Source: an uncultured Planctomycetia bacterium
GTDB lineage: Bacteria; Planctomycetota; Phycisphaerae; Phycisphaerales; SM1A02
Assembly: GCA_937919205.1 (NCBI GenBank)
Contig: CALFOZ010000128.1
Location: 1 to 34,875 of the forward strand
DNA: 34,875 bases
Reading direction: 5' to 3'
Below, in pieces: positions 2,093 to 13,300 of the stretch. Position numbers and translations under genes: made by a program. Within the stretch, counting starts at the first letter, position 1; every line of letters begins with the position of its first letter. Below the pieces are notes generated by a model. That model made no database searches. It was not told the DNA's origin and worked only from the letters and a program-made list of their open reading frames with translations.

Positions 2093-2097
2093 CGCTG

Positions 2098-2486
2098 AAA
2101 TTTGGAAATAAGCCGGATTTTGTTCCAGCTTTCGCTGGTAGTGATCATTTCTCTCTGGACCAACGTTGCCGTTGGCCTCGAAGCACGCGACCCGTCCTGC
2201 CCGCGAACAACGGGAGTTGGTTTCCCAACAAGGACTGCTTGCGCTTGCACGCGGTGGGGTTTTCCTTGCCTTGTTTGTCACCAAACAAGCGGTGCGCTCT
2301 TACCGCACCTTTTCACCCTTGCCACGCACTCCCGAGGGAGCCGTTCGGCGGTTTCTTCTCTGTGGCACTATCCCTAATCATCAGCTTGATCGATGGCCGT
2401 TCGCCATCACCGTGTTCTTCCGTGTCCGGACTTTCCTCGCCTGAAGGCGCACACACAACAAGGGCGATCACCTATCCAAAATCATG
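2098..2486 (-). ncRNA. rnpB: RNase P RNA, bacterial type A
   Basis: The catalytic RNA of ribonuclease P, which matures tRNA 5' ends. Diagnostic elements on the minus strand are the conserved GAGGAAAGTCCGGACAC near 2423-2440, the GGTGAAAAGGTGCGGTAAGA region near 2300-2320, GGCCAACG and CAGAGAGAAATGATCAC near the 3' side, and the terminal AAAATCCGGCTTAT at about 2106-2119. The 5' and 3' ends can pair (TTTGGA near 2475-2480 with TCCAAA near 2100-2105), giving helix P1 and ends good to a few bases. The length of about 390 nt fits type A. It lies downstream of rplU on the same strand and ends in a strong intrinsic terminator. I see no convincing promoter directly before it, so co-transcription with rplU and processing is possible. 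Confidence 0.95.
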
Positions 2487-5141: not shown

Positions 5142-6977
5142 ATGCCACGCTACTCTTTCATGCGCATGCGCAAACTATTGATGGTGACCATGATTTGCCT
5201 GGGCTCAAGTTGCAGTAACATTGAGAAGGCCACGCCACAACCAAAATCAACTTTCGCGCAACGTCCGCCCGTTGAAATGGATGTGGATCCAATCATGCGC
5301 GGCACCATCGCCGGCGAGGCCGTACTGCTTGGATTTAACGACACGGTTGTGCGCGGCTACGGACTTGTGGTTGGACTCAAGGGAACGGGCAGTCGCGCCA
5401 TGCCCGTGGAAGTTCGCGCTTTGCTGTTGCGGGAAATGGGTCGGCGAAAAATGTCCGATCCCCTTCAGAATCTTGGCGGCTCTCCTTCGCGCCTGCTGGA
5501 TACCGACGATATTGCGGCCGTGATTGTGGAGGGAATTATTCCGCCAGGCGCCGTGGGCGGATCCAAATTTGACGTGCGCGTGTATTCGGCGCCGGGCACA
5601 TCAACCACAAGTTTGGAAGGTGGACGGCTTTGGACTACAGAGTTGCGGGCGGGCATTTTGATGACTGGCTCGCAACAATCTTTCCCAATCGCGGACGCTG
5701 GCGGACCGGTGTTCATCAATCCATTTTCAACCGCGGTCGCCATTGGCGCTGACGCGGTCGACCGTTTAAGCGGACGAATTCTTGATGGAGGAACCGTGCT
5801 CAAGGATCGCTCCTTGAAATTGCGCTTGGCCACGCCAAGCCACAATCGCACCCGCACTATTCAGTCGGCGATCAATGGATTATTTCCACGCGAAGTTGGT
5901 CAACGCAATGACACCGCCATGGGAAAAAGCGACGAGTTGATTGATCTCACAGTGCCGCCAAGTTTCAAGGATCGAACCGGTGATTTTGCGCAGTTGATCC
6001 GCCATTCACCGGTGGACATTGGCGCCACTGAGCAAACCGCCAACAACATCCGCAGAAGTTTGCTGGCCAATCCCGGGTCCGCGGAAGCCGCCGCGTGGCG
6101 TTGGCAAGCGCTGGGCAAAAAATGTATTCCAGTGATTCAAGAGTTGTACACAAATGCGGAGGAGCAACCGCGCATGGCCGCGCTTGAGGCGGGCTCCAAA
6201 CTAAATGATCCGCTGGTGGTGCCGGCGCTTTTGGAAATGGCGAAGTCGGGACCAAATGAAAATCGACAAGCCGCAATCCGTCTTTTATCAAAGATGGATT
6301 CCAATCCAAACATTGACTTGGGGGTGCGGTCATTTCTTGACGATCGCGACATGGAAATTCGTTTCACCGCCTATGAATGCTTGCGGCGCAGACGCGACTC
6401 CTCCGTGCGTGTATTTCCTCTAAACGGCCGCTTTAAATTGGAGCTTGTGGACGCCAAGAAGCCGCTGATTTATCTCACCCAAACTGGGGATCCGCGCATT
6501 GTGATTTTTGGCGACAGCTCCGAGTTGCTTCTGCCTTTGACGGCCAACATGTGGAACGGGCGCTTGCTGATGCGCGGTGAATCCGCCGACACCAACGTGC
6601 AAATTTTCTACCGCTCCGATCCAAACATAAGTCCGACCATTGACAATGTTCCGGCGAAACTATCTGCCATCGTTGGGTTTATGGCGCGGCCCGCTGGTCC
6701 GCGCGGCGTGGACGCCGGAATTGGTTTGAGCTACAGCGAAACCATCAACGCGCTTCATACTTTGTGGAATTCTGGTTACATCGCTGGCGACTTCAAGGGC
6801 GAGCAAGATCGGTTGCTCGCGGCGATCTTGAAAGAGGAGAAGCGCGCCACTCCGGTTGATCGACCGGAGTTTCCAACCGAGGCAGAAATCATCAATCCTT
6901 TGACCAATCGAACACCGAATTCCCCCACAAAAGAACTTGAAAATAAACCAAAAGTAATCGATACTGTGCCGCGCTAA
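5142..6977 (+). CDS. FlgI-like P-ring domain lipoprotein with HEAT-like repeats
   Basis: A 611-residue exported protein. A basic start and hydrophobic stretch (RKLLMVTMICLGSSCS, residues 10-25) end in a Cys that could be a lipidation site, although the -3 to -1 residues (GSS) are a weak lipobox. Residues 58-300 resemble the flagellar P-ring protein FlgI: LLGFNDTVVRGYGLVVGLKG, then IAAVIVEGIIPPGAVGGSKF (near 124-143), SLEGGRLWTTEL and later RIQ-like spacing. Residues about 325-415 look like two or three HEAT/PBS-lyase-type helical repeats (LNDPLVVPALLEMAKSG, ENRQAAIRLLSKM). The last 200 residues are unassigned. In flagellates FlgI forms a periplasmic ring around the rod, but no other flagellar gene is nearby, so a different envelope role is likely. 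The start is uncertain: Met 7 or Met 9 would give a more standard signal peptide. It is about 80 bp upstream of smc. Confidence 0.75.
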   Translation: MPRYSFMRMRKLLMVTMICLGSSCSNIEKATPQPKSTFAQRPPVEMDVDPIMRGTIAGEAVLLGFNDTVVRGYGLVVGLKGTGSRAMPVEVRALLLREMGRRKMSDPLQNLGGSPSRLLDTDDIAAVIVEGIIPPGAVGGSKFDVRVYSAPGTSTTSLEGGRLWTTELRAGILMTGSQQSFPIADAGGPVFINPFSTAVAIGADAVDRLSGRILDGGTVLKDRSLKLRLATPSHNRTRTIQSAINGLFPREVGQRNDTAMGKSDELIDLTVPPSFKDRTGDFAQLIRHSPVDIGATEQTANNIRRSLLANPGSAEAAAWRWQALGKKCIPVIQELYTNAEEQPRMAALEAGSKLNDPLVVPALLEMAKSGPNENRQAAIRLLSKMDSNPNIDLGVRSFLDDRDMEIRFTAYECLRRRRDSSVRVFPLNGRFKLELVDAKKPLIYLTQTGDPRIVIFGDSSELLLPLTANMWNGRLLMRGESADTNVQIFYRSDPNISPTIDNVPAKLSAIVGFMARPAGPRGVDAGIGLSYSETINALHTLWNSGYIAGDFKGEQDRLLAAILKEEKRATPVDRPEFPTEAEIINPLTNRTPNSPTKELENKPKVIDTVPR

Positions 6978-7001: not shown

Positions 7002-7017
7002 GTAGATGTTTGTACAG

Positions 7018-7053
7018 GCGTCCAGGAGGGACGCGCCGCAACTGACAGGAGGT
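7018..7053 (+). promoter_or_regulatory. Double Shine-Dalgarno leader of smc, one copy in a hairpin loop
   Basis: Two AGGAGG sequences precede smc. The second (AGGAGGT, 7047-7053) lies three bases before the ATG at 7057 and defines that start. The first (7024-7029) has AGGAG exactly in the five-base loop of a 6-bp hairpin, GCGTCC (7018-7023) with GGACGC (7029-7034). This may be chance, or a standby ribosome site. Confidence 0.5.
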
Positions 7054-7056
7054 CCC

Positions 7057-10000
7057 ATGCGTCTTGCTCGACTTGTATTGAGTGGCTTTAAAAGTTTCGC
7101 CGACACAACTGAATTCCGTTTTGATTCCCCGCTCACTGGAGTTGTGGGACCAAATGGTTGCGGCAAGAGCAATGTTGTTGACGCGGTGAAATGGGTTCTG
7201 GGCGAACGCAGCGCCAAAAGTTTGCGCGGCGGCGCGATGATGGACGTGATCTTCGCGGGCAGTGCCTCGCGCAAGCCAGCGGGAATGGCCAGCGTTATTT
7301 TGGTATTTGAAAATCCAAAGATGGCGGAATTTTTACAGCGATCAGAAGCATCGCCTGAACTTGTTGAAGCCGAGGAATTTGGCGACGAGCCCGTGGACGG
7401 CGAAGTGATTCGCCGCGAGGCCGTGCGCGACCGCGTGTTGCCCGTGGACAGCGATGAGGTGCAAGTGGAGCGCAGGCTTTGGGCCGATGGCCGCAGTGAA
7501 TATTTGGTGAACTCCAAGAAGGTTCGATTGCGCGACATCCGTGAATTGTTTCTTGACACCGGCATTGGCAACGACGCGTATTGCATCATTGAACAAGGCA
7601 AAGTTGACGCCATGCTGCGCGCGCAGCCCGTTGAGCGGCGAACTATTTTGGAGGAAGCCGCGGGCGTGGCGAGATTTCGTTCGCGCAAGCATGAGGCCGC
7701 GCGCAAGTTGGATTTGGCGGAGCGTCATCTTGTGGCGGTGCGCGAACAATTGATTGGCGTTGAAAGACGATTGCGCATTGTGCGCGGCCAGGCCGAGAAG
7801 GCGAAAAAATATCAACTGCTTGAGGAGCGCAGGCGAAGTTTGCGCCGCTCGGTTGCGTTTGAGCAATACCACGAATTGCGCGAGCAACTTGTTGGCCTCA
7901 CCAATCAAGTGACATCGCTTGAGGAGCGCCGCCGACAAGTTACGGCGCAATTGGAAAACACCGAGCAAATGCGCATGGACGCCGATGGCGACCGCGCCCA
8001 GAAACTGGATCGACGCCACGCGCTTGAGCAAACCCAGCTTGAGGCCGTTGGCGTGGAGCGTCAATGCCAACAGCGTTTGGAATTTTTAGCGCGCGCGCGC
8101 GCCGAAAATTTGGCGGCCGCGGAATCAGAGGCCCAACGAATTGCTGTGATCAAGAGCAAATTAAGCGAGTTGTCCGCCAGCCTGGAGGACGCGCAATCTT
8201 TAACCGCCGCGGCCGAGGCGCAAGTAACCGAGTCGGAGCAAGCCGCCGCAAGCGCTTCTCGTGAACGCGCCGTGGCTTCGGAACGCCTGAGCGAATCCGA
8301 GCAAGAAATTCGTCGACGCAGTGACACCGCGACTGGCGTGGAGCGTGAACGCGCCCGCGCCGCTGGTCGATTGGCGGCCATGGATGAGCGTGTTCCATTG
8401 CTTAACGATGAAGTCATTCGCCTCACGGCGCGCGTGGAAAGTTTGCGCCAAGAATTGTTGACGCTTGAAACACAGCGCGAACAAGAATTGCAATCGCGCA
8501 AAGTTGCGGAGTTTGAAATCGAGCAACTGCACACGCAACTGCAAACGGAGGCGAGCGCGGTTGAAGCCGTGGGTGATCGCCAAGCCGAAGCCATCGCGCG
8601 CCTTTCGTCGCGGCGCGAGGAGCGTTCGAGCCTTGAAAGTAGATTGCGACTGCTTGATGAGATGGCCTCCATGGGCGAGGGCTTGGACGAGGCCGTGAAA
8701 CGCATTCTTGCCCAGCGCCAGAATTACACATGGTTCGCGGGCATGCTTGGCGACTTGATTGAAACCGACAGCGCGCACGCGACATTTATCGAGTCCGCGC
8801 TTGGCGAAGATTTGCAAATGCTTTTGGTGGCAACACACACGGATCTTGAGACCGCTGTGGATTCCATCCGCGGTCAAGAAGGCCGCGTGCGCATTGGCGC
8901 CATTGACTTGGTGAATCCCCCCGCCCATACCCGCCCACAATTGCCGGGCGTGGAACCTTTGGTGAACGCGGTGCGCTGTGGAAGTGAATTGCAACCATTG
9001 CTACATTCATTGTTGGGCGACGCGTTTGTTGTGGATTCACTGGCCATGGCTTTGCGATTGGCCGCCGGCGATTTCCGCGGCGCGACTTTGGTGAGCCGAT
9101 GCGGAGCCATGCTGGATCATCGCGGTCAAATTCACATGACAGGCGCGCGCGCGTTGCGCTCTGGCGTGTTGGCACGCCGCGTGGAGCGTGGCGAACTTGA
9201 GGCCGCGATTGGCGCAATCTCGGTGGAAATTTCCATGGCCGAGGGCGACCTTTCTGGTCTCACCGAGGAATCCAAAATCGCCGCGGCGCGTCATCGTGAA
9301 GCTGATGAGAGCATGAAGTTGTCCATGCGCAAACGTCTTGACGCCCAGTATCAAGCCGATCGTTTGGAGCAACTCGCCTCGCGCGTGCGTCACGATCGTG
9401 ATCGCACCGAATTGGAGCGCCACGAAGCCGATCGTCGCCTGCGCGAAATTGATACCGAGCGCAGTGATGGCGCCGTCAAGGTTGCAAGTTTGGATCGACT
9501 GTTGTTGGATGAGCGAACCGCGATCGCCGTTGCAACCGAAGCCGCGTCTGGCATTCGCCACTCGCTTGAGACGGCCAACGAGGCTTTCTCCAGCGCGCGC
9601 ACGCGCGTGGGCGAATCGGGCGCCCTGCTTCAAGGTCGCCAACGTGAACGCAGACTTCTTGAGAATTCTTTTGACGAGGCGAAATTGCAGGACGCGGATC
9701 TTCAATCAGAGTCGGAGCGTCGCGCCGAAAGATCCCAGGATCTTGCCCGCCAGCAAGCCGAGGCCGAGGCCGAGAAATCCGCCGCGGCCAATCGTCAACA
9801 AACTGCGGCGGCGCAAGTGGGCGTTGTGGTTGAGCAACTTGAGCAAGCCGTGCAACTGGCGGAGCAACTTTCAGAGGCGCTACGTATTGTCAGGGACGAA
9901 GCCAGCCGCGTGGAGCGCGATCATTCCGAAGTGGAAATGAGCCGCCGCGAGGCCGAAGTGCGCCGCGAATCCATCGAGGAAAATTCCCTCGCCGAACTTA

Positions 10001-10791
10001 CGATTGATTTGTCCTCGGGTTACATCGATTACATGGCCGAGCGCGCGACGCCGGAATTCATGACGCCCGACCGCGAAGCCGCCGGCCGCGAGGCCGAGCA
10101 ACTGCGCGTGGAAATCAAGGCGCTTGGCAATGTCAACATGGAGGCCATCGACGAACTCTCGCAACTTGAGGGCAAGAACGAGGAGCTAGCCAAGCAAGTT
10201 GGCGACATTGATCTTGCGCGCGCCGGCTTGAACGAGTTGGTGGTGAAATTGGACGATGTCAGTCGCCGCAAGTTTAAGGAAACATTCGAGGCCGTTCGCG
10301 AACGCTTCGCCGGCAATGACGGAATGTTCCGTCGACTCTTTGGTGGCGGTAGCGCGGACTTGTATTTGATTCCAATGGAGAATGGCGAAATTGATTGGCT
10401 TGAAAGCGGCGTTGAAATTCGCGCCAAGCCACCGGGCAAAGAGCCCCGCGTGATCAGTCAACTTTCTGGCGGCGAAAAAACCATGACCGCCGTGGCGTTG
10501 CTTATGGCTATTTTCCGTAGCCGCCCAAGTCCGTTTTGCATTCTGGACGAAGTTGACGCCGCCCTTGACGAGGCCAATGTTGAGCGTTTCACAAAGGCTC
10601 TGCCGCCGTTCCTTGACCGCAGTCACTTTATCATTATCACCCACCATAAACGCACCATGCAGGCTTGCCATGAACTGCACGGCGTGACCATGGCGGAGCG
10701 CGGCGTGAGCCGGCGCGTGACCGTGAAGGTGGATCAGGTGGGTGAGGATGGTAAAATTGCCGCTTCCGCCACGGAAACTCCAGTGGCTTAA
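7057..10791 (+). CDS. smc: Chromosome segregation ATPase SMC
   Basis: A 1244-residue SMC protein, which condenses and segregates chromosomes as a ring with ScpA/ScpB. The N-terminal head has Walker A GPNGCGKS (31-38) and the family block [12 protein letters not shown]. Long heptad-rich coiled coils (about 150-500 and 670-980) flank a hinge near residues 535-680 ([10 protein letters not shown], then [20 protein letters not shown]). The C-terminal head has the ABC signature LSGGEK (about 1134-1139) and Walker [14 protein letters not shown] (about 1158-1170). The ATG at 7057 is chosen over an in-frame one at 7006 because AGGAGGT precedes it and it aligns with the usual MxLxxLxLxGFKSF start. An acidic insertion of roughly 35 residues after about residue 80 separates two conserved strands of the N-terminal head. 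No scpA or scpB is in the window. Confidence 0.97.
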
Positions 10792-10816
10792 CATTTTTAG
10801 ACAAATGTAAAATTAT

Positions 10817-10838
10817 TCCACTTTGGATTTGAAGTGGA
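10817..10838. repeat. Hairpin after smc
   Basis: TCCACTT (10817-10823) and AAGTGGA (10832-10838) form a 7-bp stem with an eight-base loop, 26 bases after the smc stop. There is no T run after it on the plus strand; on the minus strand it is followed by ATAATTTTA. It may be a weak smc 3' end structure, or a weak terminator for leftward transcription. Confidence 0.4.
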
Positions 10839-10858
10839 CAAAGCACAACGTATTGTTG

Positions 10859-10966
10859 CAATGCCGCCTGATGGGCGGAGCGCTCGGCGGGTCTCCGAGT
10901 TGCGCACTGAGCCCTTGTGGGGGTTGCAGTGTGATTCGCTCCGAATGTCAGGCGGCGTTGTTTTTT
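10859..10966 (+). ncRNA. Candidate structured RNA with three-way junction and built-in terminator
   Basis: The ends pair over 13 bases, CAATGCCGCCTGA (10859-10871) with TCAGGCGGCGTTG (10948-10960), including one G-U pair, and are followed at once by six T residues (10961-10966). Inside, CGGAGCG (10876-10882) pairs with CGCTCCG (10937-10943) and encloses two hairpins. Hairpin A is CTCGG/CCGAG (10883-10887, 10895-10899) with a seven-base loop. Hairpin B is CACTG plus AGCCC (10905-10914) with GGGTT plus CAGTG (10921-10931) and one bulge. The T run places it on the plus strand. It lacks the GGAA-type SRP loop, tmRNA features and a tRNA anticodon/T arm, so I cannot name it. Alternatives are a large smc terminator or a REP/MITE-like DNA repeat. 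Confidence 0.6.
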
Positions 10967-11000: not shown

Positions 11001-12029
11001 TCACGCGGGCAGACGCTTGATCACCGCGTCGGCGAATTGTTCGGTGGACAAAGTTCCGCCAATGTCGCCAGTTTTTTCGCCATCTTGCAACGCGCGATCG
11101 TAGGCGCGACGAATGTGATCGCCGATGATTTTAAGTTTGGGAAGATCGCGCGTCACCGCCAAATGATTCAGCATCATCACTCCGCTCATCAACAAACTCA
11201 ACGGATTCGCGATGCCTTTGCCAGCGATGTCGGGGGCGGATCCGTGCACCGCCTCAAAGACCGCGTACTCATCGCCAAAGTTGGCGCCAGGCGCCACGCC
11301 CAATCCACCGATCAAACCCGCGGCGAGATCGCTGACAATATCGCCGTATAAATTTTCCATCAAGATCACGTCAAAGCGCGTCGGGTCCTGCACCAAGCGC
11401 ATGCACGCGGCGTCGATGATCAATTCCTCGTAGTGGATTTTGCCCAGCCATTTCTGCGAAACTTCTTTGGCGCATCGAATAAACAAGCCATCGCTCATCT
11501 TCATGATGTTGGCCTTGTGAAACACTGAGATCTTCTTGCGTCCGCGGTCGTTGGCGTATTGAAATGCGAACTCCGCGATGCGGCGGCTGGCCAGTTCGGT
11601 GGCCACTTTCAAACTTGTGACCACGCCGGGCGTGATTTCATTCTCAATGCCCGCGTACAAGCCCTCGGTATTTTCTCGGACCACCACAAGATCCACATTT
11701 TCAAAGCGCGTGGTCACGCCGGCCAAACTGCGGATGGGGCGAACCGCTCCGTACAAACCAAGCGTCTTGCGCAACGCGACATTCACGCTGGAGAAACCCG
11801 TTCCCACCGGCGTGGTGCATGGACCTTTCAAGGCAACGCGATGCTCGCGGATAGCGGCAAGCGTGGATTCGGGCAAAGTGCTTTTGGAACCGCCCTGCAC
11901 CGCGGCAAGTCCGGCGTCATGGCGTAGCCATTGGATGTCCACTTTGGCGGCGGCGAAAATGCGGCATACTGCCGCGGAAACTTCGGGTCCAATACCATCA
12001 CCAGGAATAAGAACTGCTTGAATTGTCAT
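11001..12029 (-). CDS. NAD-dependent isocitrate dehydrogenase type
   Basis: A 342-residue enzyme of the isocitrate/isopropylmalate dehydrogenase family. It starts MTIQAVLIPGDGIGPEV and carries RENTEGLYAGIE (substrate-binding region), FHKANIMKMSDGLF and, with the metal-binding Asp residues, MENLYGDIVSDLAAGLIGG. The short length and these motifs match the NAD-using, mitochondrial-IDH3-like and homoisocitrate dehydrogenase branch rather than the longer NADP enzyme of E. coli. It would convert isocitrate to 2-oxoglutarate and CO2 in the citric acid cycle. The isopropylmalate activity (leuB) is less likely but not excluded by reading alone. The ATG at 12029 fits the family; the upstream ATG at 12104 would add 25 unrelated residues overlapping the divergent gene. 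Confidence 0.87.
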   Translation of the reverse strand: MTIQAVLIPGDGIGPEVSAAVCRIFAAAKVDIQWLRHDAGLAAVQGGSKSTLPESTLAAIREHRVALKGPCTTPVGTGFSSVNVALRKTLGLYGAVRPIRSLAGVTTRFENVDLVVVRENTEGLYAGIENEITPGVVTSLKVATELASRRIAEFAFQYANDRGRKKISVFHKANIMKMSDGLFIRCAKEVSQKWLGKIHYEELIIDAACMRLVQDPTRFDVILMENLYGDIVSDLAAGLIGGLGVAPGANFGDEYAVFEAVHGSAPDIAGKGIANPLSLLMSGVMMLNHLAVTRDLPKLKIIGDHIRRAYDRALQDGEKTGDIGGTLSTEQFADAVIKRLPA

Positions 12030-12091
12030 AATATTTTTCAGCGTGAGATTGTGCGAGGGAATCAGGATAGCATCCATCAGCAACTTGCTAC

Positions 12092-13300
12092 ATGAGTGAG
12101 CCAATCCTTATCGATGTCTTGGTTGTTGGCGGCGGTGCCGCGGGGCTTTTTGCGCTTCATGCTTTACGCCGCGCGGGCGCTTCTGTGCTTCTAGTAGAGA
12201 ACAACTCCTTGGGTTTTGGCCAGACCACTTCAAGCCAAGGCATTTTGCACGCGGGTGTAAAATATTCCCTGGGCGGCCTGGCTGGTGACGACGCAAAAGA
12301 GGCCGCGGAGGCCGCGCATCAATGGATTCAATTGTTGGATGGAGCGAATGCGGACTTGCGCAACGTTCGGGTGCTCACGCGCCAATGTTATTTGTGGAGG
12401 ACATCAACCTTGCGTGGCGCGGCGGGAATGTTGGGCGCCAAACTTGCGCTTAAGACCAAGCCAAAAGCTATTGCAAGCATCGATCGACCAAGCTGGCTTG
12501 ATGGCGTGGGCGGCGAGGTGTTGACATTGGGTGAAACCGTGATCGATCCGCGCTCCCTGCTACGCGAACTTTCCACCCCGCATGCGCATGCGATGCTTAA
12601 AGGCAATGTCACAAGCATCACGCCGCGGACAAGCGATGTGGATGTTGAGATTGAAAGTTCTAGGCGCGTGCGTATTCGCGCGCGCCATGTGATCTTGACC
12701 GCGGGAATTGGCAATCAAGACATGGTGGGATTGTCCCACACGCCCAACGCGTCAATGCAACAGCGGCCACTTCGACAAGCCATGATTCGTGGAGCATTGC
12801 CGCTGGTGTTTGGTCATTGCATTGATGGCGCCAAAACAAGAATCACGGTGACCAGCGATGTATTTACTGCGCCAGATGATGTGATAAATGCTGGCCACGC
12901 AAGCGCGGCCAACGATGTGGTGTGGCATGTCGGCGGCCAAATTGCCGAGGACGGGCCACGCATGGGCGACAAGGAATTTCTGGAGTACGCCACGGGCGAA
13001 ATATGCCGCTGTATTCCCGGCGTTTCATTGAAAGAGTGTGGCTTTGCAAGTTACGACGTCACACGCGCCGAGCCACGCACTGGCGATGGAAAGCGACCCC
13101 CCACTGGATTCTGTCGCACGCAGGATCGAATCACCACGATTTGGCCGGTGAAACTTGTTTTGGCGCCCAAGATCGCCGCGCAACTTGTGAAAGACATGGA
13201 GCCATCCACACACCCTCAAATCACTTTGCCAATGGATCTGCCTCGGCCAGAATTGGCGCCGCGCCCATGGGAAACCGCGCGTTGGAGCGCGCTTGTATGA
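12092..13300 (+). CDS. FAD-dependent oxidoreductase (DAO family)
   Basis: A 402-residue flavoprotein. The N-terminal Rossmann motif DVLVVGGGAAGLFALHALRR (residues 8-27) is followed by an acidic residue (ENNSLGFGQTTSSQG) that would bind the ribose of FAD. A second FAD contact, HVILTAGIGNQ, lies near residues 200-210. The TTSSQGILHAGVKYS segment recalls glycerol-3-phosphate and L-2-hydroxyglutarate dehydrogenases of the D-amino-acid-oxidase (DAO) superfamily. The oxidised substrate cannot be read from sequence. Its stop TGA overlaps the ATG of the aldo/keto reductase gene (ATGA), which suggests coupled translation and a shared redox pathway. It is divergent from the isocitrate dehydrogenase gene. 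Confidence 0.85.
   Translation: MSEPILIDVLVVGGGAAGLFALHALRRAGASVLLVENNSLGFGQTTSSQGILHAGVKYSLGGLAGDDAKEAAEAAHQWIQLLDGANADLRNVRVLTRQCYLWRTSTLRGAAGMLGAKLALKTKPKAIASIDRPSWLDGVGGEVLTLGETVIDPRSLLRELSTPHAHAMLKGNVTSITPRTSDVDVEIESSRRVRIRARHVILTAGIGNQDMVGLSHTPNASMQQRPLRQAMIRGALPLVFGHCIDGAKTRITVTSDVFTAPDDVINAGHASAANDVVWHVGGQIAEDGPRMGDKEFLEYATGEICRCIPGVSLKECGFASYDVTRAEPRTGDGKRPPTGFCRTQDRITTIWPVKLVLAPKIAAQLVKDMEPSTHPQITLPMDLPRPELAPRPWETARWSALV

Follow-up and report, generated by a model that had tools for sequence, protein, structure and literature searches.

A candidate small structured RNA downstream of smc in an uncultured lineage of Planctomycetota

The window analysed here, a 34,875-nucleotide stretch of DNA from an uncultured Planctomycetia bacterium, hosts the gene smc on its forward strand (7006-10791, TIGR02168 above cut-off). 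Downstream lies a convergent gene of the isocitrate/isopropylmalate dehydrogenase type (11001-12104, reverse strand, Pfam Iso_dh), which scores below every NCBIfam equivalog cut-off. Between the two genes, and outside the second, we find a predicted small structured RNA (10862-10966, forward strand), identified by its fold, by covariance searches and by covariation. Further upstream the window carries a class A RNase P RNA (2094-2483, reverse strand, 248.9 bits), its sole Rfam match at gathering score. A 611-residue protein encoded just before smc (5142-6977, forward strand) has HEAT repeats and a match to the flagellar P-ring protein FlgI over residues 64-293, which is far under the NCBIfam FlgI cut-off.

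The first-pass annotation had described this intergenic segment as a three-way-junction RNA of four helices, and all four are present. The closing stem P1 pairs 10862-10873 with 10946-10957 and the inner stem P2 pairs 10876-10881 with 10938-10943. These carry two hairpins at a three-way junction, P3 (10882-10900) and P4 (10903-10933). P3 pairs 10882-10887 with 10895-10900 and its loop (10888-10894) contains a conserved GGGUCU; P4 pairs 10903-10915 with 10920-10933, with one bulge, and carries a conserved UYGUGGGGG at 10915-10923. The two stems are defined by the fold and covariation, the two hairpins by loop identity as well. Folded as 10859-10966 the RNA reaches -64.3 kcal/mol, compared with a mean of -41.04 for 200 dinucleotide shuffles (sd 3.43, z -6.78), none of which is as low, and the shorter stretch 10862-10966 folded alone gives a z of -5.47. 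The closing stem had been put at 13 bp. This is near the mark but not exact, as the longer fold has 15 bp (10859-10873 with 10946-10960) and our models include 12 of these, from 10862 inward. As had also been noted, the stem runs straight into six T residues (10961-10966). No pairing between the P3 and P4 loops was seen by eye.

A competing hairpin at the 5′ end (10864-10868 with 10874-10878, forward strand, CCGCC/GGCGG) would exclude P1. It can form in most copies from the same genus, with 88.6% of cells paired, although 65 of 500 shuffles reach a covariation as high and just one compensation was found, in genome G001. This hairpin could be a folding intermediate.

Upstream of the RNA there is a promoter-like pair. 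A -35-like hexamer, TTGAAG (10829-10834), is followed after 16 bases by a -10-like hexamer, TATTGT (10851-10856), sitting just before the stem. TTG, the 16-base spacing and a TATGTT-like box precede the RNA in 14 of 14 copies; the box reads TATGTT in most relatives and TATTCT in G030 and G200. The pattern was chosen after inspecting the alignment; G008 and G010 each have a further box, which lacks TTG and was disregarded. A calibrated promoter scan of the window omits this pair. The scan needs 9 of 12 consensus letters, of which the pair has 8, and lists another forward-strand site at 10788-10816. The predicted start, at about 10863, coincides with the first G-C pair of P1, and the predicted transcript runs from there to the T tract, where P1 and the six T residues together resemble an intrinsic terminator. 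G010 has a weak T tract and G200 no visible one. A promoter of the RNA's own and these transcript ends are supported as predictions. On the opposite strand there is a weak terminator-like hairpin (10817-10838), one being found where shuffled sequences would give 0.7. A transcript of the dehydrogenase-type gene that stopped at this hairpin would cross the small RNA in the antisense direction.

How widespread is this RNA? The window's own genome (G000, a 2.49-Mb draft in 241 contigs) contains a single copy by BLAST at E <= 0.001. A blastn search of 60 other relatives with 231 bases found clear matches in seven (G002, G003, G009, G011, G013, G014 and G015). In G002 and G011 the match includes the flanks, whereas in the other five it covers the RNA and reaches no more than about 23 bases beyond it on the upstream side. 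A covariance model built from eight sequences matched 12 of the 16 genomes of genus g1. A 13-sequence model added G200, which together with the previously seen G030 belongs to genus g16, and brought the total to 14 carriers among the 181 family genomes, every one of them in these two genera. For the g1 genomes G004, G005, G007 and G012 we make no claim of absence, because in each the smc match runs into the end of a contig. G003 has the RNA twice, once where contig C253 begins and once 23 bases short of the end of its C113 piece, which we read as a contig overlap. All 14 copies are found downstream of smc and on its strand, in agreement with the placement after smc proposed at first pass.

Beyond these two genera the searches returned weak matches. 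Model R2 run over the 181 family genomes matched 25 at E <= 1. Strong matches (E <= 1.6e-7) account for 14 of these; the remaining 11, with E values from 0.0115 to 0.704, were treated as chance, without inspection at those places. A weak earlier match in G061 looks by eye like coding sequence. Among 400 genomes of the order, 13 matched at E <= 0.01, namely 12 known carriers and G310. Apart from this weak, uninspected 52-base match in G310, the sample gave no convincing member beyond the known carriers. Among 397 genomes of the class, 11 matched, three of them known and eight new and weak. Five of the eight weak class matches were inspected, and by eye they lack the pair of loops, although L159 does contain UCGUGGGGG, in apparent coding DNA; the inspection did not extend to G253, G444, G474 or the second match in G545. 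The 801-base stretches downstream of smc in 60 genomes from 37 other genera gave 42 matches at E <= 10. The best of these (23.7 bits, E 8.8e-5 in that search) is a long hairpin without the loops, and 7 of the 60 stretches matched when the two loops were sought with a permissive letter pattern. No convincing member was found in these stretches, where the alignments of the best four matches were read and copies farther from smc would escape. Searches over 40 genomes used stricter filters, with the loss of weak members. Diverged members may have been missed.

A repeat of the REP or MITE kind, whose pairing would simply be that of a palindromic element, is barely credible here. The long, near-palindromic closing stem would suit such an element, and repeat-like palindromes do score weakly in other genomes. 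However, the RNA occurs once in its own genome and at a constant position in 14 genomes, and it has no phage or plasmid match (blastn, E 1e-5). The many copies that the first-pass annotation had considered fatal to its reading are thus not seen. Separately, other members of the class host long nested palindromes (L157 1501-1603, L158 1501-1630 and L160 1501-1601), followed in L157 and L158 by eight T residues; these look like repeat-type hairpins.

Compensatory changes that support helices are a mark of a structured non-coding RNA, and their absence had been named as the other observation that would count against this one. We scored them on two alignments. A6 contains 14 sequences fitted to the model and so leans towards structure; for this reason the counting was repeated with 13 sequences aligned by MAFFT without structural guidance (A4) and scored with the structure of the window copy. 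In A6, 94.6% of 497 cells are paired and 26 of 36 pairs show two-sided changes, compared with a shuffled mean of 10.0 (0/500 as high). Its covariation score is 0.466 versus 0.169 when shuffled, and falls to 0.052-0.083 when the alignment is slid by one to three columns. The structure-blind A4 gives weaker support in the same direction: 92.5% paired, two-sided changes in 13 of 37 pairs (5/500 shuffles as high), and a covariation of 0.334 against 0.169 (0/500). One of the five measures, the number of further pair types, shows no excess in A4 (33 versus a shuffled 32.7, 272/500). Covariation is present in all the helices. In addition, five copies folded alone give z values of -5.47, -4.01, -2.87, -3.61 and -6.06, with 2 of 200 shuffles as low in G006 and none in the others. 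The A6 row of G200 appears shifted in P1 and P2, and the fold of G200 by itself retains the architecture.

The loops are the best-conserved parts of the RNA. GGGUCU and UYGUGGGGG are nearly invariant among the copies. In seven chosen representatives the mean pairwise identity is 0.77 for the P3 loop and 0.83 for the P4 loop region, compared with 0.52-0.61 for the stem classes, 0.29 for the junctions, 0.34 for the 5′ extension and 0.41 for the tail. The P4 motif is partly paired in the window fold and mostly loop in G030 and G200. The rate of change can be compared with that of the neighbouring smc, counting gaps in the RNA as differences. In comparisons with G003, G013 and G009, identity is 94-95% for the RNA, 81-83% for smc DNA and 60-63% for the third codon positions of smc. 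The corresponding figures for RNA and smc are 80% and 78% for G014, 61.5% and 62-63% for G001 and G006, and 44% and 53% for G030. The RNA therefore evolves far more slowly than smc between near relatives. Between distant ones it does not, and a large part of the divergence in its stems is compensated. A hidden small open reading frame was considered and dropped. Many g1 copies do have an open frame 0, but no reading frame is conserved across the 14 copies, being broken by single-base gaps and in-frame stops.

Since the RNA is always found downstream of smc, co-transcription with smc or processing from its mRNA is possible. Is it then simply a complex intrinsic terminator that serves smc, or a 3′ UTR processed from the smc transcript, and otherwise functionless? 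The constant position on the strand of smc and the stem followed by six T residues would fit, and the GC-rich stem directly before the T tract is shared with intrinsic terminators. Unlike these, the RNA has a branched fold, conserved loops and an upstream promoter-like pair, the last in every one of the 14 copies. A plain terminator needs its stem more than its loop, and here the loops are the more conserved. In G200 the structure is kept without a visible T tract. In G015 about 2.5 kb of DNA, with an integrase-core (rve) transposase-type gene (contig C154, L081 2283-2771, reverse strand) and another reading frame, separates smc from the RNA, yet both are kept. On this evidence we consider the terminator or 3′ UTR explanation improbable.

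The genes on the other side are more variable. In seven g1 genomes (G000, G002, G003, G009, G013, G014 and G015) the next gene is the convergent dehydrogenase, and the same is inferred for G011, where the contig ends 243 bases on, because its flanks match. G001, G006, G008 and G010 instead have a codirectional FAD oxidoreductase, a family assignment tested in G001 alone, and G030 has a convergent HSP20 gene. The window has its own FAD oxidoreductase (12092-13300), which shares 50% identity with the G001 protein; the dehydrogenase gene therefore probably lies between genes that were once adjacent. The G030 homologue is about 75 kb from the RNA on the same contig.

These arrangements bear on whether the RNA is a cis-acting leader that controls a following FAD oxidoreductase gene as a riboswitch or attenuator. 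The four genomes with that gene on the same strand, and a fold that ends in a terminator-like stem, are what such a leader would show. It would also be expected to keep a constant codirectional gene downstream, but the next gene is codirectional in just these four. It is convergent in the seven g1 genomes, where the RNA is still highly similar, presumably in G011 as an eighth, and in G030, whose oxidoreductase homologue lies far away. The probable position of the dehydrogenase gene between former neighbours and the distant G030 homologue therefore disfavour a leader function, which we regard as very unlikely.

The suggestion that the RNA matches no recognised small RNA holds against Rfam 15, where neither the RNA in the window nor the diverged loci L060-L063 and L034 have a family at gathering score. 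At E up to 10, the segment 10780-11010 gave four matches, all sub-threshold. The small SRP RNA (RF00169) is likewise strongly folded and about 100 nt long, but has no Rfam match at the element, and four of the five carriers searched have a separate SRP RNA gene (G001, G006, G014 and G030); G124 and G063 match RF00169 too. It was not found in G000 itself, which may reflect a gap in the draft. The 6S RNA (RF00013) is also small and structured with a long duplex, in a model of 187 positions; it has no Rfam match at the element and none in G000. Elsewhere, 6S-like matches (E <= 0.001) occur in 19 of 151 family genomes, including L162, L163 and L164 and none in genus g1. The best of these, at 42.1 bits, is under the Rfam cut-off of 46.4, and they are possibly diverged 6S RNAs. 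A run of CUGAUG, GAA and GUC, which resembles a hammerhead core, was considered by eye and rejected, because these letters fall within the covarying closing stem or next to it and a third stem is missing.

Searches of the open-access literature listed no description of this smc-downstream RNA. One published candidate structured RNA, Rhodopirellula-1, is tabulated for Planctomycetes and also for Proteobacteria, with a 'y' as its middle mark (PMC2864571). The mark presumably denotes cis-regulation. The comparison with the smc-downstream RNA is by this description.

Among known kinds of RNA, those close in design include bacterial small RNAs that act in trans through conserved seeds in their loops, such as the C-rich-loop sRNAs of staphylococci. 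Like these, the RNA described here is about 100 nt long and has a promoter-like pair, hairpins with conserved loops and a terminator-like end. Unlike the staphylococcal RNAs, it has G-rich loops on a three-way-junction scaffold and matches no Rfam family.

The best overall explanation, to which we assign a probability of roughly 0.6, is an independent, trans-acting small structured RNA gene. It is most likely a small RNA of about 104 nt in its own right, not merely a terminator of smc, a repeat or a leader. A sigma70-type promoter (TTG, 16 bases, TAtgtT) would start the transcript at about 10863. This would fold into a long closing duplex (P1-P2) bearing P3 and P4 at the three-way junction, and the duplex and U tract would also terminate transcription. 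The GGGUCU and UYGUGGGGG loops would then form the working surface. We infer action in trans because the downstream genes change and the loops are conserved.

What might the loops bind? Pairing with C-rich stretches of other RNAs would be the most likely mode of action, and we prefer it tentatively. Somewhat less likely, the small RNA would still be independent but its loops would contact a protein instead of another RNA, either to sequester it or as the core of a ribonucleoprotein. Two near-invariant loops on covarying stems fit protein recognition equally well, but no partner gene was identified beside the RNA. Furthermore, CsrA and RsmA recognise a GGA motif, and neither loop is of that kind. 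The base-pairing and protein-binding readings share most of their evidence, and our confidences in them therefore overlap.

The RNA is probably a new, lineage-restricted family of an already known kind, the bacterial small RNA, with no family at threshold in Rfam 15. That it is instead a new class of structured RNA, a two-loop scaffold of one uncultured Planctomycetota lineage that serves as a global regulator or ribonucleoprotein core, seems doubtful. For the whole PVC group, one table gives eight entries, presumably small-RNA families (PMC9029176). Because this RNA is small, sits at one site and has conserved loops, its function should be directly testable with a cultured relative or mapped metatranscriptomes. 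If it is transcribed, it would be a new, covariation-supported small-RNA family in a phylum where few seem to have been described.
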